Shown here: positions 7,479-46,826 of the stretch, piece after piece
How positions within the stretch are numbered: the first letter of the stretch is position 1
Layout of the letters: each line of letters starts with the position of its first letter
DNA from: Ilumatobacteraceae bacterium
Lineage (GTDB): Bacteria; Actinomycetota; Acidimicrobiia; Acidimicrobiales; Ilumatobacteraceae
DNA length: 64,000 nucleotides
Direction: 5' to 3'
Assembly: GCA_033344875.1 (NCBI GenBank)
Contig: JAWPMO010000001.1
Coordinates: 1,575,595-1,639,594, forward strand
Translations under genes and position numbers: made by a program
Notes under the pieces: model-generated
Databases searched by the model: none
What the model saw: only the letters and a program-made list of their open reading frames with translations
What the model was told of the DNA's origin: nothing

Positions 7479-10400
7479 TCAGACCCTCGCAGATTCCATG
7501 ATTCGGGTGGTCGTCTCGTCGTCGCTCAGGCCGGCCGCCTCGGCGTCGGCCATCACGGCCAGCACCCGCTTGTAGTCGGTCGGCATCACCTTGCGGAACT
7601 TGCTGACCTCGACGTTGAAGGCCTTCAACATCCGCCGCGCGACCGCCGAACCGGTGTACTCGAGATGACGCCCGAGGGTCTGGTGCAGGAAGTCGCGATC
7701 CGATTCGTCGAGCTGCTCGATCTCGACCATCTCGTAGTTGACCTTGCGATCGAAGTCGTTGTTCCGGTCGTACACGTAGGCGATGCCGCCCGACATGCCC
7801 GCACCGAAGTTGCGTCCGGTCGGGCCCAGCACGACGACGCGACCGCCGGTCATGTATTCGCACCCGTGGTCGCCGACGCCTTCGACGACGGCGGTGGCAC
7901 CGGAGTTGCGGACGCAGAACCGCTCACCGACCATGCCACGCAGGTAGATCTCGCCGCTGGTCGCGCCGTAGCCGATCACGTTGCCGGCGATCACCTGGTC
8001 TTCGGCGACGAACGGGGCCGCCTCGGACGGGCGCACGATCAGCTTGCCGCCCGAGAGTCCCTTGCCGAGGTAGTCGTTGGTGTCGCCGACCAGTCGCATG
8101 GTGATGCCCTTGGGCACGAACGCACCGAAGCTCTGCCCGGCCGAACCGGTGAACTCGATCTTGATCGTGTCGTCGGGCAGCCCTGCGCCCTTCCAGACCT
8201 TGGTGACCTCGTGGCCGAGCAGCGTGCCGACCGTGCGGTTGACGTTGCGGATCGGCAGCTCGATCTCGACGGGGGTGCCCTCGGTGATCGCCGGCTGTGC
8301 CCGACGGATCAGCTCCTGGTCGAGCGCCTCGTCGAGCCCGTGATCCTGGCCGACCGTCTGGCGGAACGCCTGGTCGTACGGGTTCTCGACGATCTGGAGG
8401 ATCGGGCTGATGTCGAGACCGCTCGCCTTCCAGTGATCGACGGCCGGCTGCACGTCGAGCGCCTCGACATGACCGATCATCTCGTCCATCGTGCGGAACC
8501 CGAGCTGCGCCATGTACTCACGGATCTCCTCCGCGATGTACTCGAAGAAGTTCACGACGAACTCGGGCTTGCCCGTGAACCGCTTGCGGAGTTCGGGGTT
8601 CTGCGTGGCGACGCCCACCGGACACGTGTCGAGGTGGCAGACACGCATCATCACGCAGCCCGACACCACGAGCGGCGCGGTGGCGAAGCCGAACTCCTCG
8701 GCTCCGAGCAGCGCGGCGACGACGACGTCACGGCCCGTCTTCAGCTGACCGTCGGCCTGGACGACGATGCGGTCGCGCAGCCCGTTGAGGATCAGCGTCT
8801 GCTGCGTCTCGGCGAGGCCCAGTTCCCACGGGCCGCCGGCGTGCTTCAGGGATGTGAGCGGTGATGCACCCGTTCCACCGTCGTGACCGGAGATCAGCAC
8901 CACGTCGGCCTTCGCCTTGGAGACACCGGCGGCGACGGTGCCGACCCCCATCTCGGCGACGAGCTTGACGTGGATGCGCGCCTCGGGGCTCGCGTTCTTG
9001 AGGTCGTGGATCAGCTGCTTGAGATCCTCGATCGAATAGATGTCGTGGTGCGGCGGCGGGCTGATCAGCCCGACACCCGGCGTGGAGTGCCGGGTCTTGG
9101 CGATCCACGGGTACACCTTGTGGCCGGGCAGCTGCCCACCCTCGCCGGGCTTGGCACCCTGCGCCATCTTGATCTGGATGTCGTCGGAGTTGGTGAGGTA
9201 CTCGCTGGTGACGCCGAACCGGCCGGAGGCGACCTGCTTGATCGACGAGCGGCGGGTCGGGTCGTAGAGCCGATCGGCGTCTTCGCCACCCTCACCCGTG
9301 TTCGACTTGGCGCCGAGCTGGTTCATCGCCACCGCGAGCGTCTCGTGGGCCTCGGCCGAGATCGACCCGTACGACATCGCCCCGGTCGAGAACCGCTTCA
9401 CGATCTCGCTGACCGGCTCGACCTCGTCGATCGAGATCGGCGTGCGGCCGTCGGCGAACTTGAACAGGCCACGCAGCGTCGCCAGGTTGGTCGACTGGTC
9501 GTCGACCCGCGACGTGTACTCCTTGAAGATGTCGTACCGCTTCGACCGTGTGGCGTGCTGCAGCTTGAACACGGTCTCGGGGTTGAACAGGTGGTACTCG
9601 CCCTCGCGACGCCACTGGTACTCGCCGCCGAGCTCGAGCTTGCGGTGGGCGCGCTCCTCGGGACGCTTCGGGTTGGCGACGGAGTGGCGCATCTGGATCG
9701 CGGTCGCGATCTGATCGAGGCCGATGCCGCCGAGTCGGCTGACCGTGCCGGTGAAGTACTTGTCGACGAGTTCGTCGCCGAGTCCGATCGCCTCGAAGAT
9801 CTGCGCACCGGTGTACGACGCGACCGTCGACACGCCCATCTTCGACATGACCTTGAGCACGCCCTTGCCGCAGGCCTTGATGTAGTTCTTGATCGCGACG
9901 TGCGGGTCGATCCCGCCGAGACCGTGCAGGCCTTCGGAGATCAGGTCCTCGATCGACTCGAACGCGAGGTACGGGTTGATCGCCCCGGCGCCGTACCCGA
10001 TCAGGAGCGCCATGTGGTGCACCTCCCGGGCATCGCCGCACTCGACCACCAGACCGACCTGCGTGCGCTGCTTGGTGCGGACGAGGTGATGGTGCACGGC
10101 AGCGGTCAGCAGCAGCGACGGGATCGGCGCCTCGACCGAGTCGGCGTTGCGATCGCTCAGGACGATCACGCGGGCGCCACGTTCGATCGCGGAGGTGACC
10201 TCTTCGAAGATCGCGTCGAGCGACGTGCGCAACGACTCGCCACCGCCGGCCACGCGATACAGGCCCTTGACCACGTGCGCCGCGAGGCCGGGGAACTGTC
10301 CGCCGGCGTTGGCGTGGATGATCTTGGCCAGCTCGTCGTTGTCGATGATCGGGAACGGCAACGCCAACTGGCGGCAGCTCTCGGCACTCGGGGCGAGCAC

Positions 10401-38137: not shown

Positions 38138-39142
38138 TCAGTCGTCGGCGACGACGACGGGCACGTGTCCGGCCCGCATCGACGGCACGACGCGCGACCC
38201 GATCGCGATCCGGTCGAGATGCGACTGGAGCGACCGCACGGTGCCACCGGAGGGCAGACCCAACGTGTAGCACCAGCTCGAACCACGGAACTCGGCGGCA
38301 TCGACCGTCGCTGCCCCGTCGGGCTCGACCGAGAACGTCACGTCGTCGGGCCGGACCATCGCCATCGCCGACGGATCGGAGATGGCGGCGATGCCCGAGA
38401 TCTCGGCGGCCGCGACGCCCCACGGCAGGAAGCTCGCCTCGCCCATGAACGCCGCCACGAATCGATTGACCGGCTCGTGGAAGACGTGCTCCGGCGTGTC
38501 GATCTGCACGATCCGGCCGGCCTGCATCACCGCGACGCGGTCACCGACGGCCAGCGCCTCGTTCTGGTCGTGGGTCACCATGATCGCCGGCGTCGCGGTG
38601 GAGCGCAGGATGGCCGCGACGTCGTCGCGCACCCGCGCCCGAAGGTTCGGATCGAGGCTCGCGAAGGGCTCGTCCAGCAGCAGGAGCGCCGGGCGCGGGG
38701 CGAGTGCCCTGGCCAGCGCCACCCGCTGGCGTTCCCCACCCGACAGCTCGTGCGGGTACCGCTCGTCGTAGCCGGCCAGCCCGACGAGATCGAGCATCTC
38801 GGCGACGCGGGCCGTCCGGCCGCCGTCGCGGACGCCGAACCCGATGTTGCCGGCGACCGTCAGGTGCGGGAACAAGGCGTGCTCCTGGAAGACGAGTCCG
38901 ACACGGCGCCCCTCGGGAGGCACCGGACGACGTCCGTCGTCGACCACCCGACCACCGAGTTCGACGGTGCCGGTCTCGGTCGGTTGCAGACCGGCGAGGA
39001 TCCGCAGCAGGGTCGACTTGCCACAACCGCTCGGCCCGACGAGGGCCAGCAGTTCGTGATCGCCGAGCTCGAACGACACCTCGTCGACGGCGACCACGCC
39101 GTCGAAGCGCTTGGAGACACCGTGGACACGCAGCGACGTCAT
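38138..39142 (-). CDS. Ferric-iron-type ABC transporter ATPase (FbpC-like)
   Basis: A 334-residue ABC ATPase. Walker A is GPSGCGKST, the signature is LSGGERQRVALARALA, Walker B is LLLLDEPFASLD and the switch His is in VTHDQNEAL. A C-terminal regulatory (TOBE-like) domain covers about 235-334. It is the last gene of a four-gene minus-strand operon, and its ATG overlaps the permease stop by 4 bases. By family and by the neighbouring binding protein it powers uptake of ferric iron. An iron box at the operon head supports this. Confidence 0.92.
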   Translation of the reverse strand: MTSLRVHGVSKRFDGVVAVDEVSFELGDHELLALVGPSGCGKSTLLRILAGLQPTETGTVELGGRVVDDGRRPVPPEGRRVGLVFQEHALFPHLTVAGNIGFGVRDGGRTARVAEMLDLVGLAGYDERYPHELSGGERQRVALARALAPRPALLLLDEPFASLDPNLRARVRDDVAAILRSTATPAIMVTHDQNEALAVGDRVAVMQAGRIVQIDTPEHVFHEPVNRFVAAFMGEASFLPWGVAAAEISGIAAISDPSAMAMVRPDDVTFSVEPDGAATVDAAEFRGSSWCYTLGLPSGGTVRSLQSHLDRIAIGSRVVPSMRAGHVPVVVADD

Positions 39143-40776
39143 CGCGCGGCTCCGTCGAGTCGACGGGACAGCAGGAACACCGGGATCAGCGCGACCACGA
39201 TGATCGACAGGGCCGGGAGTGCCGCCTGCTCGTAGCGGGATTCCGACGCCAGGTTGAACACCCAGACCGGCAGCGTGTCGAAGCCGAGCGGACGGAGCAG
39301 CAGCACGATCGGCAGTTCCTTGAGCGCGTCGACGCCGACCAGGACGGCCGCCGAGAACAGCGACGCCTTCGCGAGTGGCACGTGCACGCGACGGGCCGTC
39401 TCGAGCGGGGCAGCGCCGAGCGTCCGCGCCGAGGCGGTCATCTCCTCGGGAACCTGTCCGACCCCCGATTCGACCGCGCTCAGACCTGGTGCCAAGAACC
39501 GGACGGTATAGGCGTAGACAAGCACCAGCAACGATCCGGTGGCCACGAAGCCCGGCAGGTCGAGGCCGATCGATTCGAGCCCGCCGTCGACGGCGACCAT
39601 CGTGAGGATCACGCCGATGCCGACCACCGGGCCGGGAACCGCGTACCCGACGGCGATCGCCCGGCTCGCCAACGAGGTGGCGCGGCGGCCACCGAAGCGG
39701 CGCGCGTTGGCGACGGTCACCGCGACCACGGTGCAGATCAGCACCGTGTAGAAGACCAGTTGGAGACTGTGCCAGAGGTAGCCCGGGTACTGGTCGAGCA
39801 GCGGTGTGCCCCGATCGCCGGCCTGTTCTCGGATGGCCCAGACCGACAGCTGCACGACCGGACCGACGAACGCAGCCACGACGATCGCTCCGCACACGGC
39901 GGTCGCAGCCCAGGACCGCCAGCCGGTGAGCGTTCGGCGTTCGATCCCGCCCGCTGCCCCACCCGACTGGCCGAAGCGGGCACGCCCGCGACCGACCCGC
40001 TCGAGTCCGATCGCGAGCAGCGCGAACCCCAGGACCAGTGTCGCGATCTCGCTGGCGGCGTTGCGGTCGTAGGTCCCGTTCCAGATCCGGAACACGCCGA
40101 CCGACACCGTGTCGACGCCGAAGTACTGCACGGTGGCGAAATCGGTCAGCGTCTCCATCATCACGACCGCGCCGCCGGCGGCGATCGCCGGCCGCACCAG
40201 CGGGAGCACGACCCGGCGCGCTGCTTCGGTCGGTCCGGCACCGAGTGTGCGGGCCGCGTGGTACGCACCGGCGGCCTGGTCGCGCAGCGCGGCCCGAGCG
40301 AGCAGGTAGACGTACGGGTACAGCACGAGCGTGAATGCAACGATGGCACCGGTGAGCGATTCGACCTCGGGGAACCAGGCATCGCGACCGAACCACGACC
40401 GCCAGGTGTCCTGGATCGGCCCGGTCCGCCCGAACGTCGACAACGTGAGGAACCCGAGGATGTAGCTCGGCATCGCGAACGGGAGGATCAGCATCCAACC
40501 GAACGTGCGAACACCGCGGAACTCGTAGGCGCTCACCAGCCAGGCGAGCCCGGTGCCGAGCACGACCGTGCCGACCGCGACTCCGACCAGCAGGATCGCC
40601 GTCGTGACGAGTTCACCCGGCAGGCGGGTCCGCCACTGCTGTGACCAGACATCGGGGCTGGGTCGCAGGATGCTCGCGGCGAGCATCGCGACCGGCACGA
40701 CGACCAGGAGAGCCGCGACGATCGAGGACAGCGACCAGCCCGCGGTTCCCGAGCGTCTCCCGAACGTCGATGCCAC
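39139..40776 (-). CDS. Ferric-iron-type ABC transporter permease (FbpB-like)
   Basis: A 545-residue permease made of two fused halves with about 12 membrane helices, as usual for FbpB/SfuB. Each half carries an EAA-type loop (ARTLGAGPTEAARRVVLPLVRPA in the first half, ARTLGAAPLETARRVHVPLAKA in the second). The GTG start lies 7 bases after the binding-protein stop, and the 3' end overlaps the ATPase start. It forms the membrane channel for iron delivered by the binding protein. Confidence 0.93.
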   Translation of the reverse strand: MASTFGRRSGTAGWSLSSIVAALLVVVPVAMLAASILRPSPDVWSQQWRTRLPGELVTTAILLVGVAVGTVVLGTGLAWLVSAYEFRGVRTFGWMLILPFAMPSYILGFLTLSTFGRTGPIQDTWRSWFGRDAWFPEVESLTGAIVAFTLVLYPYVYLLARAALRDQAAGAYHAARTLGAGPTEAARRVVLPLVRPAIAAGGAVVMMETLTDFATVQYFGVDTVSVGVFRIWNGTYDRNAASEIATLVLGFALLAIGLERVGRGRARFGQSGGAAGGIERRTLTGWRSWAATAVCGAIVVAAFVGPVVQLSVWAIREQAGDRGTPLLDQYPGYLWHSLQLVFYTVLICTVVAVTVANARRFGGRRATSLASRAIAVGYAVPGPVVGIGVILTMVAVDGGLESIGLDLPGFVATGSLLVLVYAYTVRFLAPGLSAVESGVGQVPEEMTASARTLGAAPLETARRVHVPLAKASLFSAAVLVGVDALKELPIVLLLRPLGFDTLPVWVFNLASESRYEQAALPALSIIVVALIPVFLLSRRLDGAAR

Positions 40777-40783
40777 GACGGGA

Positions 40784-41800
40784 TCAGCCGTAGCCGGCTT
40801 CGTCCATCAGGCGAACGGCGTCGGCGTTCAAGGCACCGAAGACCGAGGCATCGAGCGGGTCGCGCACGAAGTCGGTACCGAACTCACGCGTGATCAGCGG
40901 CTCGGGTGGGACCGACGGGTTGGCCGGGTACTCGTGGTTCGCACTGACGAGCACGTCCTGGCCCTCGGTGGCCAACCATTCGAGGAACTCCCGTGCGAGC
41001 TCTGGCTGCTTCGAGTACTTCGTCACGCCGCCGCCGGAGATGTTGACGTGGACACCGCGCCCGTCCTGGTCGGCCCAGACGAGTCCGACCGGGAAGTCAG
41101 GGTCTTCTTCGAGCATGCGGCCGAGGTAGTAGTGGTTGGTCACACCCACTTCGCAGAGCCCGTCGGCCAGCGACTCGAGGATCAACACGTCGTTGCTCAG
41201 GATCTCGGCGTTGTCGGACCAGCCCTCGACGACCCGGAGCGCTTCGTCGGGACCGAGGTTGGCGATCAGGCTGGCCACCAGTGACTGCTGGTACACGTTG
41301 GTGGAGTTCCGGAGACAGATCCGGTCCTTCCACTCGGGTTCGGCGAGTTCTTCGTACGTGGTGGGGACGTCGCTCTCGTCGAGGAGTTCGGTGTTGTAGA
41401 CGATCGTGCGAGCCCGGATCGTCAGGGCGTACCAGTAGCCGTCGGGGTCGCTCAGCTCGGCCGGGATCGCACTCTGCAGGATCTCGGAGTCGAGCGGCTG
41501 GAACAGGCCGTCGGCTGCCGCCGTCGCGAGGTTGCCGGCGTCGACCGTGATGTAGGCGTCGGCCTCGGTGTCTTCTCCCTCGGCCTCGATGCGCTCGCGG
41601 AGCGCACCGTCGTTCCCGGTCAGGAACTCGATGTTGACCCCGGTCTCGTCCTCGTAGAGCTCGAACGCCTTCTCGATGTTGTAGTGACGACCGCTGTACA
41701 CGTAGAGCGTGTCGCCGTCGCTCCCCGAACACGCCGTGATCGTCATCACCGCGCCGACGGCCACGGCACCGAGTCGAAGGGGACGACGGATCCTGTTCAC
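40784..41800 (-). CDS. Ferric-iron ABC transporter substrate-binding lipoprotein (FbpA/FutA-like)
   Basis: A 338-residue binding protein with a lipoprotein signal ending in TITAC (Cys24). The mature part starts LYVYSGRHY, typical of FbpA/FutA. The paired tyrosines in TNHYYLGRM correspond to the iron-coordinating Tyr residues of the family, and ISGGGVTKYSKQPELAREFLEWL is another family landmark. The GTG start has GAGG 7 bases upstream. It lies 9 bases after the 861-residue adenylation/acyltransferase gene, so the two are cotranscribed. Confidence 0.93.
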   Translation of the reverse strand: MNRIRRPLRLGAVAVGAVMTITACSGSDGDTLYVYSGRHYNIEKAFELYEDETGVNIEFLTGNDGALRERIEAEGEDTEADAYITVDAGNLATAAADGLFQPLDSEILQSAIPAELSDPDGYWYALTIRARTIVYNTELLDESDVPTTYEELAEPEWKDRICLRNSTNVYQQSLVASLIANLGPDEALRVVEGWSDNAEILSNDVLILESLADGLCEVGVTNHYYLGRMLEEDPDFPVGLVWADQDGRGVHVNISGGGVTKYSKQPELAREFLEWLATEGQDVLVSANHEYPANPSVPPEPLITREFGTDFVRDPLDASVFGALNADAVRLMDEAGYG

Positions 41801-41809
41801 GTGGCTACC

Positions 41810-44395
41810 TCAATGCTGCAATCGGGGGGTGGTGCTGGCGACTCGGGCGACGGGCTCGGGAGTGGCACGCCGCCACGACCATGCTTGTCGCCAGTTGTTC
41901 AGGGAGCCTAACGAACGCTCCGCGACGAACCACACGAGCACACCCGACACGATCGTCAGCACGTACGAGACCTCGCGGATGAAGACCAGGCGATAGAGCG
42001 GCCAGATCGTGAAGTGCGACACGTAGATCCACATGCTGGCGGCGGCGAGCGTGCCGACGATCCGCACCGACCAGCGAGGCACGGGCAACTCACGCACCCA
42101 CACCAGCACGACGAGCAACACCAGGATTCGCCACTCGCGGGCTGCGGTGTGGAAGTAGCCGAGCACGGTGGCGAGGGCGACGATCGACGTCAGCGACCGC
42201 TGCCACCACGTCGTCGACCGCTGGATCAGCCAGCCGAGCGCGAAGAACCAGGCGACCCCGTGGGTGCGGAACCGGAGGTTGTACCACTCCCCCATGTACG
42301 CCCACTCCATGCGAAACACGAGGGCGAGACCGAGGGCGGCCAGCGGGACCAGGTAGGCGAACCGCCGATCCATGCGCCGGACGGCCGGAACGATCGTCAG
42401 CAGCGACGCCAGCAGCACCAGGTGGACGAACACCTCGATGAACCAGAAGTGCCAGTGGTCGTCGGCGTGTGACGAGGGTCCGACGTAGTTGTTGACCAGC
42501 AGCAACGTGCCGACGCTGTACGAACCGAACACGGTCATCCCGACCGCGACCCAGACCATCGTGGGGACCGCCGCCCGCCCGGCCGTGCGGAGCCCGGCGC
42601 GGATTCGCTCGCCGGGCGACGGCAGCGGGGCCATGAACCGGGCGAGGTTGTATCCGGCGACCGCCAGCAGGGTGTGGGCACCCCCGGGAACGTGGCGGAC
42701 ACGCATGTGCGTGGCCACCACGAGGCAGATGCCGATCGCCCGCAACGCGACCGTCGTGTCGAGTCGGGCCCACCTGCGGCGCGGCACCGCTGCGGCTGCG
42801 AGCGTCGAGATCGGTTGGAGGTGCCAGTCGGACGGCAGCTGACCGAGGGTCGCTTCCAGGCGGATCGAACACTCGACGTAGCTCAGCGAGTCGCCGCCGA
42901 GGGAGACGAACGTGTCGGTGTCGTCGACCCGAGCGACGCCGAGGACCGCCGCGAAGATCGCCGCGACGGACCCGTCGGAACCGGTCGATGTGGAGGGCTG
43001 CTCGTCCGCTGCGGCGACGTCGATGCCGGCGTCGGTCGCCAACATCGTGGCCTGGTCGACCTTGTCGGACGCCGTCCGCGGGATGGGGCGGTCGTGGACC
43101 CGGCAGCAGTGTCCGGGCAGCCCGGTCACCGCCGAGAGCCGTTCGGCGACCTCGGCGGGGTCGGACCCCGGGGCGAAGACCACCACCCGGTCGTCGTCCC
43201 CGGCGACCGCCAACGCGCCGGCGGTGTGAGGTGCGAGCTGCGACTCGACCTCGTCGAGATCGATCCGGAGCCCGAACGGCTTCACGAAGCGGGATCGCCG
43301 GCCGACGATCTCGTAGACGTCGTCCTCGGCGTGATACCTGGCGAGGTCGCCGGTCGCCAGTTCGTCGAGCGTGTGGCCGAGCGCCAGGTCGTCGAGTTCG
43401 CCCGCGTAGCCCATCATCACGTTGGCGCCGCGGTACACGAGTTCACCGACATCGCCGGGTTGCCCGTCGACCGGGCGCAGCTCGAGCGACCCGCCGGGGA
43501 TCGGTCGCCCGATCGCCGAGGGCCGACGCAGGGTCAGCTCCGGCGGCAGATAGGCGATGCGCGCGGTCGCCTCGGTCTGCCCGTACATCACCACGAACTC
43601 GGCGCCCCACCCGGCGACCCGCTCGGCCCACCTCGTCACGGCCTCGGGTGCCATGCGGCCGCCCGCCTGGGTGAGCAGTCGCAGCGACGAGGCGGCCAGC
43701 TCGTCGGGTGACGCCCGGTCGAGCATCTCGTAGGTGTGTGGCACGCCGGCGAGGTTGGTGACGCCGTGCTCGAACAGGGCGGTGCGGAAACAGGGGTCGA
43801 CGACGGATGTGTCGGTGAGCACGACGCTCGCTCCCACCAGCAGATGCGAATGCAGCACCGACAGGCCGTAGCAATAGTGGAGCGGCAGCGAGGTGATGCC
43901 GCGGTCGTCGGGCGTCAGCCGCAGGTAGTCGGCGATCGACTCGGCGTTGCTGAGCAGGTTGCGATGCGAGAGTCGGGCGAGCTTGGGGCTCCCGGTCGAC
44001 CCGGATGTGCTCACCAGGATCGCGAGATCAGGGTGCAGTTCGACCTGCGCCGTCTCGCACTGTGTGATCTCGACCACCTCGTCGGTGGCGACGACGACGG
44101 CCCCCACCGGCCAGGCCTCGGACAGCCGGTCGCCGTGGGACCCGGCGAGCAGCGGGACGTGACCCGACTCGATGAGCGCGAGGTAGGTGACGACGAACTC
44201 GATCGAGTGGTCACCGGTCAGGGTCACGATCGACCGTGCGGGCAGGGCCACGTCGGCTCGTCGAGCGTCGACCAGCGCCGCCAGCTCGGAGAAGGTGACG
44301 TGTCGATCACCCGACACGAGGGCAGGTCGATGCGGCGAGCCAGCGCCGGCGAGCAGTATGCCGGACAGCGTGGCGGTCGACGTCGAGGCGCGCAT
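41810..44395 (-). CDS. Adenylation - carrier protein - membrane acyltransferase-3 fusion
   Basis: An 861-residue protein in three parts. Residues 1-450 form an AMP-forming ligase: A3 motif TSGSTGSPK (130-138), A5 YGQTEAT (271-277), A7 TGDL (348-351), A8 with Lys372 and GLRIDLDEVE, and the A10 catalytic Lys445. Residues about 475-535 form a carrier domain with LGGDSLSY, pantetheinylated at Ser503. Residues 545-840 are an acyltransferase-3 membrane domain of about ten helices with the RX10H motif Arg552-His563. No condensation, thioesterase or reductase domain is present. The pocket segment LHYCYGLSVLHSHL resembles acyl-acid ligases, and the Asp that holds amino-acid amines is not evident. The likely role is to activate a carboxylic acid, load it on the carrier and pass it to a membrane acceptor. 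It leads an iron-transporter operon with an iron box at its promoter. Confidence 0.88.
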   Translation of the reverse strand: MRASTSTATLSGILLAGAGSPHRPALVSGDRHVTFSELAALVDARRADVALPARSIVTLTGDHSIEFVVTYLALIESGHVPLLAGSHGDRLSEAWPVGAVVVATDEVVEITQCETAQVELHPDLAILVSTSGSTGSPKLARLSHRNLLSNAESIADYLRLTPDDRGITSLPLHYCYGLSVLHSHLLVGASVVLTDTSVVDPCFRTALFEHGVTNLAGVPHTYEMLDRASPDELAASSLRLLTQAGGRMAPEAVTRWAERVAGWGAEFVVMYGQTEATARIAYLPPELTLRRPSAIGRPIPGGSLELRPVDGQPGDVGELVYRGANVMMGYAGELDDLALGHTLDELATGDLARYHAEDDVYEIVGRRSRFVKPFGLRIDLDEVESQLAPHTAGALAVAGDDDRVVVFAPGSDPAEVAERLSAVTGLPGHCCRVHDRPIPRTASDKVDQATMLATDAGIDVAAADEQPSTSTGSDGSVAAIFAAVLGVARVDDTDTFVSLGGDSLSYVECSIRLEATLGQLPSDWHLQPISTLAAAAVPRRRWARLDTTVALRAIGICLVVATHMRVRHVPGGAHTLLAVAGYNLARFMAPLPSPGERIRAGLRTAGRAAVPTMVWVAVGMTVFGSYSVGTLLLVNNYVGPSSHADDHWHFWFIEVFVHLVLLASLLTIVPAVRRMDRRFAYLVPLAALGLALVFRMEWAYMGEWYNLRFRTHGVAWFFALGWLIQRSTTWWQRSLTSIVALATVLGYFHTAAREWRILVLLVVLVWVRELPVPRWSVRIVGTLAAASMWIYVSHFTIWPLYRLVFIREVSYVLTIVSGVLVWFVAERSLGSLNNWRQAWSWRRATPEPVARVASTTPRLQH

Positions 44396-44403
44396 CGCGC
44401 TGA

Positions 44404-44425
44404 ATGTTAGGACGGCCTAACGCAA
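44404..44425 (-). promoter_or_regulatory. IdeR/DtxR-like iron box over the -10 of the iron operon
   Basis: On the minus strand TAACAT (44409-44404) is 8 bases before the ATG at 44395, so the mRNA is probably leaderless. TTTGGA lies 18 bases further up. Overlapping the -10, 44407-44425 matches the mycobacterial iron-box consensus (TWAGGTTAGSCTWACCTWA) at about 14 of 19 positions, and GTTAGG/CCTAAC form perfect 6-base arms around ACGG. Binding there would block transcription when iron is plentiful. Confidence 0.6.
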
Positions 44426-44762: not shown

Positions 44763-44847
44763 CCGACCATCTTCGCCGATGATCCCGTCGTCGACCCGAT
44801 CGGCGGACGATGCGATCTCGACCGGTGCGTCCCGCGAGAATGTCAGC

Positions 44848-45948
44848 ATGCCGATCGACCTGGTGACGAACGACGGGGTGAGGTGCATGCTGATGCGCGG
44901 CGGCACCTCGAAGGGGGCGTACTTCCTCGCCGATGATCTGCCCGTCGAGAAGGCCGACCGCGACGACCTCCTCCTCCGGCTCATGGGGTCACCCGACGAC
45001 CGGCAGATCGACGGTCTCGGCGGAGCCCATCCGCTCACCAGCAAGGTGGCGGTGGTCCGGCGGTCCGAACGCGACGATGCCGACGTCGACTATCTCTTCC
45101 TGCAGGTGAGCGTCGATGAACCGAGCGTGAGCGACCGGCAGAACTGCGGCAACCTGCTGGCGGGCGTCGGACCCTTCGCCGTCGAGCGTGGCCTCGTCGC
45201 CGGCGTCCCCGGCGAGGCGACCACGTCGGTGCGAGTGTTCATGGTCAACACCGACTCGATCGCCACCGCCTCGTTCCCGACCCTCGACGGCGTGCCGATC
45301 TACCACGGGTCGACCGCGATCGACGGCGTTCCGGGAACGGCCGCTGCGATCCAGCTCGATTTCGAAGGTATCGCCGGGGGTTCGTGCGGCGCGCTGCTCC
45401 CGACCGGCAACGTCGTCGACGTCATCGACGACGTCGAGGTGACGCTGATCGACAACGGCATGCCGGTCGTCGTGCTCCGCGGGCGGGATCTCGGGATCGA
45501 GGGCACGGAGTCCCCCGCCGAGCTCGAAGCCGACCAGACCCTGCGGCGGCGCCTCGAGTCGATCCGGCTCGAGGCCGGTCCGTTGATGAACCTGGGTGAC
45601 GTCACCGACACGACCGTGCCGAAGCTGACGATGGTGTCGCCACCGACGGCCGGGGGCGACATCTCCACGCGCACCTTCATCCCCCACCGCTGCCACGACG
45701 CCATCGGCGTGTTGGGAGCCGTCTCGGTCGCGACCGCGGCACTGCTTCCCGGATCGCCTGCGGGCGAGCTGCTCCGCCCCGGCGCCGGCGACGACGGCGT
45801 GTTGATCTGCGAACATCCGACCGGCGCCTTCACCGCGACGGTCGAGGTCGACACGACGGGCGAGATCCCGCTCGTCCGGCGCGCCGGGATCATCCGCACC
45901 GCCCGCAAGCTGATGGACGGCACCGCCTTCCCGAGGAGCTCCACGTGA
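44848..45948 (+). CDS. PrpF/4-oxalomesaconate tautomerase family protein
   Basis: A 366-residue PrpF-fold isomerase. The N-terminal CMLMRGGTSKGAYF, the catalytic Cys segments RQNCGNLLAGVGPFA and GGSCGALLPTGN, and the C-terminal HPTGAF motif are all as in PrpF and in GalD-type 4-oxalomesaconate tautomerases. The neighbouring gene encodes a LigI-like pyrone hydrolase, whose product is tautomerised and hydrated in the protocatechuate 4,5-cleavage or gallate pathway, so the tautomerase role is favoured over methylaconitate isomerase. The stop overlaps the next start. Confidence 0.88.
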   Translation: MPIDLVTNDGVRCMLMRGGTSKGAYFLADDLPVEKADRDDLLLRLMGSPDDRQIDGLGGAHPLTSKVAVVRRSERDDADVDYLFLQVSVDEPSVSDRQNCGNLLAGVGPFAVERGLVAGVPGEATTSVRVFMVNTDSIATASFPTLDGVPIYHGSTAIDGVPGTAAAIQLDFEGIAGGSCGALLPTGNVVDVIDDVEVTLIDNGMPVVVLRGRDLGIEGTESPAELEADQTLRRRLESIRLEAGPLMNLGDVTDTTVPKLTMVSPPTAGGDISTRTFIPHRCHDAIGVLGAVSVATAALLPGSPAGELLRPGAGDDGVLICEHPTGAFTATVEVDTTGEIPLVRRAGIIRTARKLMDGTAFPRSST

Positions 45949-46826
45949 TGTCCGAGCCGAAGCGCATCGCCGGTCCGCACCCGGACCCGCATCCACCCCG
46001 TCGCTGGACGCCGCCGCCGAACGCCACCGACGCGCACTGCCACGTGTTCGGTCCGGCCGCTCGGTTCCCGTTCTCGCCCGACCGGTCGTACACCCCGTCC
46101 GACTCCGGCATCGACGACTTCGAGGTGCTCCAAGCGCGGCTCGGACTGTCGCGGGCGGTGTTCGTTCAGGCGTCGTGCCACGGCACCGACAACGCCGCAA
46201 TGGTCGATGCGCTCGAACGGGGTCGCGGTCGGTACGCCGGCGTGGCGATGATCGACGAGTCGTTCGCCGACGCCGACATCGCACGCCTGCACGAATCCGG
46301 CGTCCGCGGCACCCGATTCAACTTCGTGCAGCATCTCGGCGGGGCTCCCGCGCTCGACGTCTTCTGGCGTCTCGTCGACCGAGTGCAGCCGTACGGTTGG
46401 CACATCGTGTTGCACTTCGACGCCAAGGACCTGCCGGCCCACGCCGAACTGCTCGACCGGATGCCGTGCCCCTACGTGATCGACCACATGGCCCGCGTGC
46501 CGACGGCCGACGGGATCGAGCAGGCACCGTTCCAGGCGTTGCTCGAGCTGATGCGCGACGAGCGCTGCTGGGTCAAGATCTCGGGTGCCGAACGGCTCAC
46601 GGCCGACGGTCCGCCGCCGTATGACGACGTGGTGCCGTACGCTCGAGCACTCGTCGCCGCCGCACCCGATCGGGTCCTGTGGGGAACCGACTGGCCACAT
46701 CCCAATGTGCGCCACATGCCCGACGACGGCGACCTCGTCGACCTGCTGGTCGACCTGATCCCCGACGAGGCGACGCGCGAGCGCGTGCTCGTCACCAACC
46801 CCGAGACCCTCTACGACTTCGACTGA
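45948..46826 (+). CDS. Amidohydrolase, 2-pyrone-4,6-dicarboxylate hydrolase (LigI)-like
   Basis: A 292-residue TIM-barrel amidohydrolase of the COG3618 group. Landmarks match LigI closely: DAHCHVFGPAARFPF, VFVQASCHGTDNAAM, GTRFNFVQHLGG, VIDHMARVP and LWGTDWPHPN. LigI opens the pyrone lactone to 4-oxalomesaconate/4-carboxy-2-hydroxymuconate without a metal. The related L-rhamnono/L-fucono-lactonases of this group are the alternative and would fit the sugar genes around. ATG at 45948 overlaps the tautomerase stop by one base and has GAGGAG upstream. Confidence 0.85.
   Translation: MSEPKRIAGPHPDPHPPRRWTPPPNATDAHCHVFGPAARFPFSPDRSYTPSDSGIDDFEVLQARLGLSRAVFVQASCHGTDNAAMVDALERGRGRYAGVAMIDESFADADIARLHESGVRGTRFNFVQHLGGAPALDVFWRLVDRVQPYGWHIVLHFDAKDLPAHAELLDRMPCPYVIDHMARVPTADGIEQAPFQALLELMRDERCWVKISGAERLTADGPPPYDDVVPYARALVAAAPDRVLWGTDWPHPNVRHMPDDGDLVDLLVDLIPDEATRERVLVTNPETLYDFD

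Follow-up and report, generated by a model that had tools for sequence, protein, structure and literature searches.

What is achieved when the activation of a carboxylic acid, its carriage as a thioester and its transfer at a membrane are all encoded in one polypeptide? This question is raised by a gene of an Ilumatobacteraceae bacterium (Actinomycetota), found on the complementary strand at positions 41810..44395 of the 64,000-nucleotide stretch of contig JAWPMO010000001.1 analysed here (the window). Its 861-residue product, referred to below as A-PCP-AT3, combines an adenylation (A) domain, a carrier (PCP) domain and a membrane domain of the acyltransferase AT3 type. Computation supports the arrangement of domains, the invariance of the catalytic residues, the class of fold, the iron-type sites at promoters and the linkage with ferric importers; together these incline us, with measured confidence, to regard A-PCP-AT3 as an enzyme of iron starvation that uses a carrier-fed transmembrane acyltransferase to synthesize or install an iron ligand outside the cytoplasm.

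A coherent family of fused proteins

The open reading frame (ORF) has the place and length claimed by an earlier reading made from the letters alone (the sequence-only reading), and the domain-database search which that reading had proposed returns all three domains: AMP-binding (1.8e-44), PP-binding (1e-6) and Acyl_transf_3 (1.9e-7) in Pfam. The A domain, of the ANL type, spans approximately residues 1–455 (43031..44395, complementary strand, as are the two other domains; Pfam and VIA-align). It is followed by the carrier domain (residues 477–533, 42797..42967; Pfam and the alignment described below), with Ser503 of an LGGDSL motif as predicted phosphopantetheine site, and by the TmAT/AT3-type membrane domain (approximately residues 547–830, 41906..42757; Pfam and fold model), which carries Arg552-x10-His563. 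For the whole chain the Acyl_transf_3 match amounts to 30.9 bits, the Pfam cut-off being 31, and it rises to 35.5 bits when the C-terminal 326 residues are scanned alone; among seven full-length relatives two lie above the cut-off, two below it and three show no match at E 0.01. Such weak scores would explain why ‘AMP-binding protein' is the sole annotation of most plasmid-borne family members. An AlphaFold model of the entire chain has a mean predicted local distance difference test score (pLDDT) of 84.6.

Members of the family are present in Actinomycetota and Pseudomonadota, including Nocardia, Mycolicibacterium, Sinorhizobium and Rhodobacteraceae. A relative is carried by 5 of 10 genomes of the bacterium's own genus (E 1e-60), by 11 of 118 of its order and by 16 of 396 of its phylum, the own genome being included and the lists overlapping; one of the nine new order loci (G076) and two of the twelve new phylum loci (G335, G449) are partial matches whose flanks were not analysed. 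A scan of species genomes, from which the best 80 of 83 loci were kept, returned a family-type A domain in 31 loci (L013–L043), and in 29 of these the match extends past the carrier domain. Plasmid searches with two queries matched 85 and 86 records, of which 16 hand-picked regions were analysed (7 of the 11 actinobacterial rows listed for the second query). Genes at unannotated loci were called by a simple codon-usage script, with no gene finder; L146 is a near-copy of L162, and L150 one of L161, and L142, which is the place of hit H51, is counted once.

The alignment comprises 34 rows chosen as full-length, namely the window protein, 25 of the 35 loci L009–L043, and L108–L115. Loci left out are L038 and L042, which have no fused AT3, the partial L012, L011, whose frame runs into the next gene, and L015, L023, L030, L035, L036 and L041, mostly near-copies. 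Thr130, Ser131, Gly132, Asp350, Lys445, Ser503, Arg552, His563, Trp651, Arg695, Gly721 and Trp722 are invariant in all 34 rows, so that the four residues singled out by the sequence-only reading (Lys445, Ser503, Arg552 and His563) stand as written. The window protein thus has both marks of an ANL enzyme, the A10 lysine (Lys445) and the P-loop TSGSTG, in which Gly135 is also found in every row and Ser133 and Thr134 are nearly invariant. Since relatives sharing these residues occur in many genera of two phyla, the A-PCP-AT3 frame is neither a chance ORF nor a one-off fusion; the layout is real and defines a distinct, coherent protein family, and the listing of fusions and neighbours that the sequence-only reading had called for also reveals ferric importers adjoining some of its members.

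In the two loci that lack the fusion, a separate, convergent AT3 gene adjoins the A-PCP gene (L038:4920-7802 and 7830-8921; L042:5824-7524 and 7536-8537), and the A-PCP protein of L038 has a long additional C-terminal part that looks GNAT-like by eye. The Henriciella pair of L042 was considered as a split orthologue of the fusion and rejected, its AT3 showing no real similarity to the fused one.

The membrane domain and its acyl donor

Modelled alone with AlphaFold, the membrane part has a pLDDT of 89.3 and a predicted template modelling score of 0.86. Results of a VIA-align search show the strongest structural similarity with HGSNAT (Z 14.8, r.m.s.d. value of 4.6 calculated over 265 residues), in a method where helical models can reach a Z of about 13–14 through helix arrangement alone. 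The top nine rows (Z 12.5–14.8) consist of seven titled HGSNAT and two titled ‘membrane proteins', one of which, 8JKV, is HGSNAT (PMC12423673). GWT1 rows follow at Z 9.4–9.7 and the next row falls to 6.4, the first 11 rows all looking like TmAT proteins; Foldseek returned no match to this model at E 0.001. The predicted model displays the 10-helix fold of the TmAT superfamily, and the membrane part is, on this modelling, a TmAT/AT3-type domain belonging to a divergent AT3. In agreement with the sequence-only reading, structure prediction gives the AT3 part a TmAT-like fold, and it is no MBOAT by either Pfam or fold match.

Motifs described as conserved in AT3/TmAT proteins are R-x10-H, DxxR, FxxxxG, RxxR, a glycine of transmembrane helix (TMH) 6 and SxxxY (PMC12423673, PMC9833829), and simulations of OafB assigned Arg14 and Arg74 to the 3′-phosphate of coenzyme A (CoA; PMC9833829). 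The A-PCP-AT3 family has the R-x10-H of TMH1 and the glycines of TMH2 and TMH6 (the latter Gly721) in 34 of 34 rows and, in most rows, the SxxxY of TMH9 (Tyr in 32, Ser in 28, both in 26). The canonical RxxR of TMH3, in the register found in all four other AT3s of the same genome, is present in none of the 34 rows; within the preceding 12 residues nine rows have an RxxR elsewhere and 15 a lone arginine. The TMH1 aspartate of DxxR and the TMH2 phenylalanine of FxxxxG are likewise absent from every row. By eye, all four of the genome's other AT3s have RxxR and FxxxxG, and three have DxxR.

The family therefore resembles AT3 (PF01757) and TmAT proteins such as OafB and HGSNAT in its predicted fold and invariant R-x10-H, but differs from them in lacking three canonical elements and in possessing adenylation and carrier domains of its own. 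Taking into account that carrier-bound phosphopantetheine offers no nucleotide to grip, loss of the CoA-linked motifs fits a carrier donor. The missing RxxR, DxxR aspartate and FxxxxG phenylalanine would thus favour feeding by the carrier over feeding by CoA, and the sequence-only reading's idea of a carrier-fed AT3 gains from this motif pattern, from which the preference is drawn.

Iron-type promoters and ferric importers

The perfect palindrome TTAGGACGGCCTAA (44407..44420) resembles an iron box and lies 11 bp upstream of the A-PCP-AT3 start codon. Pattern counts at up to one mismatch give one site in the window, where 0.04 is expected, and four in the 4.97 Mb genome, versus 16 for the reversed pattern. 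Two genomic copies are perfect, that of the A-PCP-AT3 promoter and one at C1:3711159, which is flanked by the genes for a siderophore-interacting protein and a FecCD permease. Genes for two binding proteins and a DUF2470 protein are found nearby, as is a third site at a distance of about 1 kb. The fourth site is upstream of an IclR-type regulator gene and apparently unrelated. The surrounding iron/haem locus (L097, C1:3704000-3718000), whose binding proteins are of the Peripla_BP_2 type, suggests by its gene content that the bacterium may import foreign siderophores.

The palindrome is not an isolated case. A 19-bp sequence that we take to be the DtxR/IdeR consensus was scored over positions −120 to +20 with a threshold of 13, tolerances having been set after the first upstream regions had been viewed by eye. 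Among actinobacterial genes or operons outside Nocardia, 17 of 21 score at least 13, as do 2 of 207 other genes of the same loci; the set is partly non-blind, some of its regions having been seen first by eye, and L108–L115, which came later, reach the threshold in six of eight cases. Two later sets of loci give 7 of 10 and 7 of 7 (together 14 of 17), and there no other site in the locus DNA examined outscores the box. Operon starts of L017, L026, L027, L109, L115, L140, L142, L150 and L161 were chosen from gene maps, and that of L024 was shifted 30 bases downstream after a box had been found just inside the first guess; L016, whose contig ends before the operon start (box 12.0), and the partial L012 were left out of the set of 21. 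Predicted boxes at the promoters and the single DtxR-family gene of the bacterium's own genome are the sequence features of a DtxR/IdeR regulon. A second strong palindrome, TTAGGCAGGCCTAA, precedes a glutamate synthase-like gene at L115:15108 (by eye), and the Rhodococcus plasmid loci L145, L159 and L160 have a second iron-box-like site at about 10.5–10.9 kb, at the A-PCP-AT3 end and before the importer genes.

In alphaproteobacteria, iron genes are controlled by RirA, IscR and other regulators (PMC4618611). The proteobacterial relatives were searched for TGA-N9-TCA, six fixed letters that presumably represent RirA half-sites. The pattern occurs in 14 of 21 loci, corresponding to 7 of 13 lineages of our own grouping, over a background of 0.05 per region searched; six of the 14 loci are from Sinorhizobium/Ensifer and are not independent. 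The 21 loci were all taken as alphaproteobacterial, including L157 (filed as a betaproteobacterium), L034 (filed as Proteobacteria only) and L158, whose annotated gene is shortened and whose start is uncertain; L038 and L042, left out of the count, contain no exact TGA-N9-TCA site. A single Balneatrix locus shows a Fur-like site with 12 of 14 fixed letters. These sites are suggestive only, and the link to iron may have been kept under unrelated regulators. An Rrf2/IscR-like regulator gene (by eye) is divergent from the A-PCP-AT3 gene in one locus (L110:7278-7823).

The link to iron extends to the genes downstream, for in the window A-PCP-AT3 heads a ferric-iron ATP-binding cassette (ABC) importer operon on the complementary strand. 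Nine base pairs after its stop begins the gene of an Fe3+ substrate-binding protein of the FutA/FbpA type, with a lipobox recognized by eye (40784..41800; best match 7li0, 259 bits); the genome yields no second match of this type. It is followed by genes for a double-length ABC permease (39139..40776; ORF list and scan) and an ABC ATPase identified by scan, which overlaps the end of the permease gene (38138..39142). Both the palindrome and these importer genes had been overlooked by the sequence-only reading, which was right as to layout and logic. The same gene order is repeated on plasmids of Rhodococcus gordoniae, R. fascians and R. pseudokoreensis, whereas the importer precedes the A-PCP-AT3 gene in Mycolicibacterium rufum and M. 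chubuense and lies on the opposite strand in the alphaproteobacterium Pararhizobium.

When 62 loci are clustered at 70% identity of the enzyme, 10 of the 39 clusters show a ferric binding protein and a permease within the flanking DNA examined (L016 and L027 are counted as negative, their cluster showing one of the two genes per locus). By best solved match the binding proteins form three groups: 7li0/FutA-like (window), SfuA/YfuA-like (Rhodococcus and LLX17) and 1y9u-like (Pararhizobium). The pairing of enzyme and importer appears by eye in several separate places of a tree in which 15 of 59 inner branches are open and whose group statistic sets the importer-linked rows against the stand-alone ligases only. 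Such recruitment of differing importers is hard to explain unless enzyme and importer share a task. Clusters without the importer pair yet with a box include the L019–L025 relatives as well as L108, L110–L112, L136–L138, L141 and L146. Phyllobacterium L144, whose annotation suggested an iron ABC neighbour, was not counted, its binding protein being of the sugar type.

Importer aside, no helper biosynthetic gene recurring across genera stood out among the neighbours compared, which suggests that the acid and its acceptor are probably common metabolites. In mycobacterial loci an acyl-CoA thioesterase gene adjoins A-PCP-AT3 on the other strand (L022:8419-9240 and similar), a functional arrangement or mere synteny. 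The Rhizobium phaseoli relative is followed by YcaO-like and TfuA-like genes of the kind seen in clusters for modified peptides (L143:11740-18412). In the window itself a PrpF-family gene and an Amidohydro_2 gene, overlapping by 4 bp, run divergently from A-PCP-AT3 (44779-46826, forward strand) and are probably an unrelated catabolic pair.

The acid, the product and competing explanations

VIA-align scores of the ANL domain to PltF, HitB, MenE, MatB and others (Z 33.7–34.4; DltA 32.9) are too even to identify the acid. No acidic residue occupies the A4 position, where amino-acid-activating domains have one to hold the amino group: Asp235 of GrsA aligns with Cys175 by hand and with Gly177 by HMMER, while Arg279 is invariant in the 34 rows. 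This speaks against D-alanine specificity, and the substrate is probably not an α-amino acid. The closest stand-alone A domains found share the pocket motifs MYGQTEA (14 of 17) and TQAGG (15 of 17), and in all three of the loci tested (L044, L055 and L058) LuxE and LuxC genes follow the ligase; a reductase is encoded in L048 and L055 and an acyl carrier protein (ACP) in L048. With such neighbours, a hydroxy or short acyl acid is as likely as any. The sets tested come from Lysinibacillus, Salinispora and Magnetospirillum, some with SDR and ACP genes, and other loci among L044–L063 show ORFs similar in size to the ligase–LuxE–LuxC set; none of these clusters contains a fused AT3. The own genome's second-best A-domain match is an exosortase-A-associated ligase (L002, C1:1926756-1927961; TIGR03098, 593.7 bits, cut-off 592.35).

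A mechanism compatible with these observations can be outlined. Iron starvation would induce the gene; the A domain would adenylate a carboxylic acid and load it onto the phosphopantetheine arm of Ser503, for whose priming the genome's one AcpS-family gene is the predicted candidate. This arm would then reach into the fused TmAT/AT3 domain through its cytoplasmic mouth, and an acceptor on the outer side would receive the acyl group. The resulting iron ligand, either small or held at the surface, would help supply Fe3+ to the co-encoded FbpABC-type importer. We infer the feeding by the carrier instead of CoA, the direction of transfer and the binding of iron by the product. Iron-type promoters and linkage to ferric importers make iron acquisition a better fit than a routine decoration of the cell wall. 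A more far-reaching claim, to be taken as tentative, is that the family represents a route to a siderophore or iron ligand outside the non-ribosomal peptide synthetase (NRPS) and NRPS-independent siderophore synthetase (NIS) pathways, in which one polypeptide activates and carries a common acid and transfers it across the membrane to an external acceptor, the resulting iron carrier feeding an FbpABC importer.

Several observations weigh against an iron-supply role or against carrier feeding. The box falls below 13 in L010 and L011, both of the window's genus, and in L113 and L114; it is missed in L134, L135 and L139 of the later sets and found in none of six Nocardia loci. The window's own box has a spacer of 4 bp where 9 is usual, and only two sites in the bacterium's genome fit the 19-bp pattern, neither of them at the A-PCP-AT3 gene. 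TGA-N9-TCA is absent from 7 of the 21 proteobacterial loci, and 29 of the 39 clusters have no binding protein and permease pair in the flank examined. As to the donor, registers of the AT3 motifs were placed by sequence, with no solved structure used; the DxxR aspartate is described as dispensable in one AT3, OacB (PMC12423673), and OafB Arg14, whose counterpart the family keeps, is itself among the residues that contact the CoA 3′-phosphate in simulations (PMC9833829).

The main rival, which we consider unlikely but the most serious, is a Dlt-like modification of the envelope under iron starvation, in which acylation of a surface polymer or lipid changes charge or permeability and the product binds no iron. 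For the bacterial AT3 proteins covered by one review the substrates are largely glycans, either secreted or at the surface (PMC9558356), and the ligase–LuxE–LuxC set, with ACP and reductase, has been described from the flagellar glycosylation islands of Aeromonas (PMC7874193), a likeness by description and not by sequence comparison. Pairing with ferric importers of three binding-protein groups suggests instead a direct role in iron supply. The likeness to Dlt (DltA, DltC, DltB and DltD), where a carboxylate activated by a ligase is kept as a thioester on a carrier until a membrane enzyme passes it to an outside acceptor, was drawn by the sequence-only reading; it holds for this logic, in view of the invariant residues and the TmAT-like fold, and is otherwise an analogy. 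Indeed, A-PCP-AT3 is a single chain with a TmAT/AT3-type enzyme instead of an MBOAT, lacks an acidic residue where an amino group would be held and is preceded by iron-type promoters.

The MbtM–MbtL–MbtK system of mycobactin acylation consists of an iron-regulated acyl-ACP ligase, a carrier and an acyltransferase. By comparison with it, A-PCP-AT3 might be a tailoring enzyme whose substrate for acylation is a siderophore of other origin, a reading that we judge improbable. IdeR-type boxes do precede the mycobacterial copies, and the MbtM model is matched weakly (79 bits, cut-off 621). A-PCP-AT3 is, however, fused and has a membrane transferase in place of a GNAT enzyme, and its own genome offers no NRPS partner: the condensation domain PF00668 (matched in 4 of 14 control genomes) and the NIS domain IucA/IucC PF04183 (2 of 14) have no match there, and no siderophore synthetase is found among the neighbouring genes scanned or annotated, though unannotated stretches remain, and a foreign siderophore or an unknown pathway could still supply the substrate. 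Least probable is that the AT3 part uses acyl-CoA, as do the AT3 proteins with tested donors described in PMC9833829 and PMC9558356, while the A-PCP part charges or regulates something else: by eye the separate AT3 of L038 keeps RxxR (that of L042 does not), yet the three CoA-linked elements mostly kept in the genome's other AT3s are missing throughout the family, and the carrier is fused to the transferase in nearly all the loci from L013 to L043.

Against this background, an enzyme of iron starvation that produces or attaches an iron ligand remains the favoured explanation. New here are the iron-type promoters, the link to a ferric importer and the absence of CoA-linked motifs from the AT3 part; among the matches listed in open-licence literature there is no description of an A-PCP-AT3 fusion or of an AT3 connected with siderophores, and no report of an FbpABC importer linked to a carrier-type acyltransferase. 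The window importer is an ordinary member of the FbpABC-type ferric importers, from which its acyltransferase partner sets it apart.

FbpABC-type importers are widespread, and how Fe3+ is delivered to them is unclear in many free-living bacteria. A one-gene partner that has iron-type promoters in distant bacteria, and that is found in a genome without NRPS or NIS genes, makes the question of Fe3+ delivery testable. If the proposal is true, A-PCP-AT3 would be, among the matches found, the first protein of the TmAT superfamily to receive its acyl group from a carrier protein and an example of how a carrier domain can supply such an enzyme; proteins mostly annotated as AMP-binding would gain a name and a testable role.

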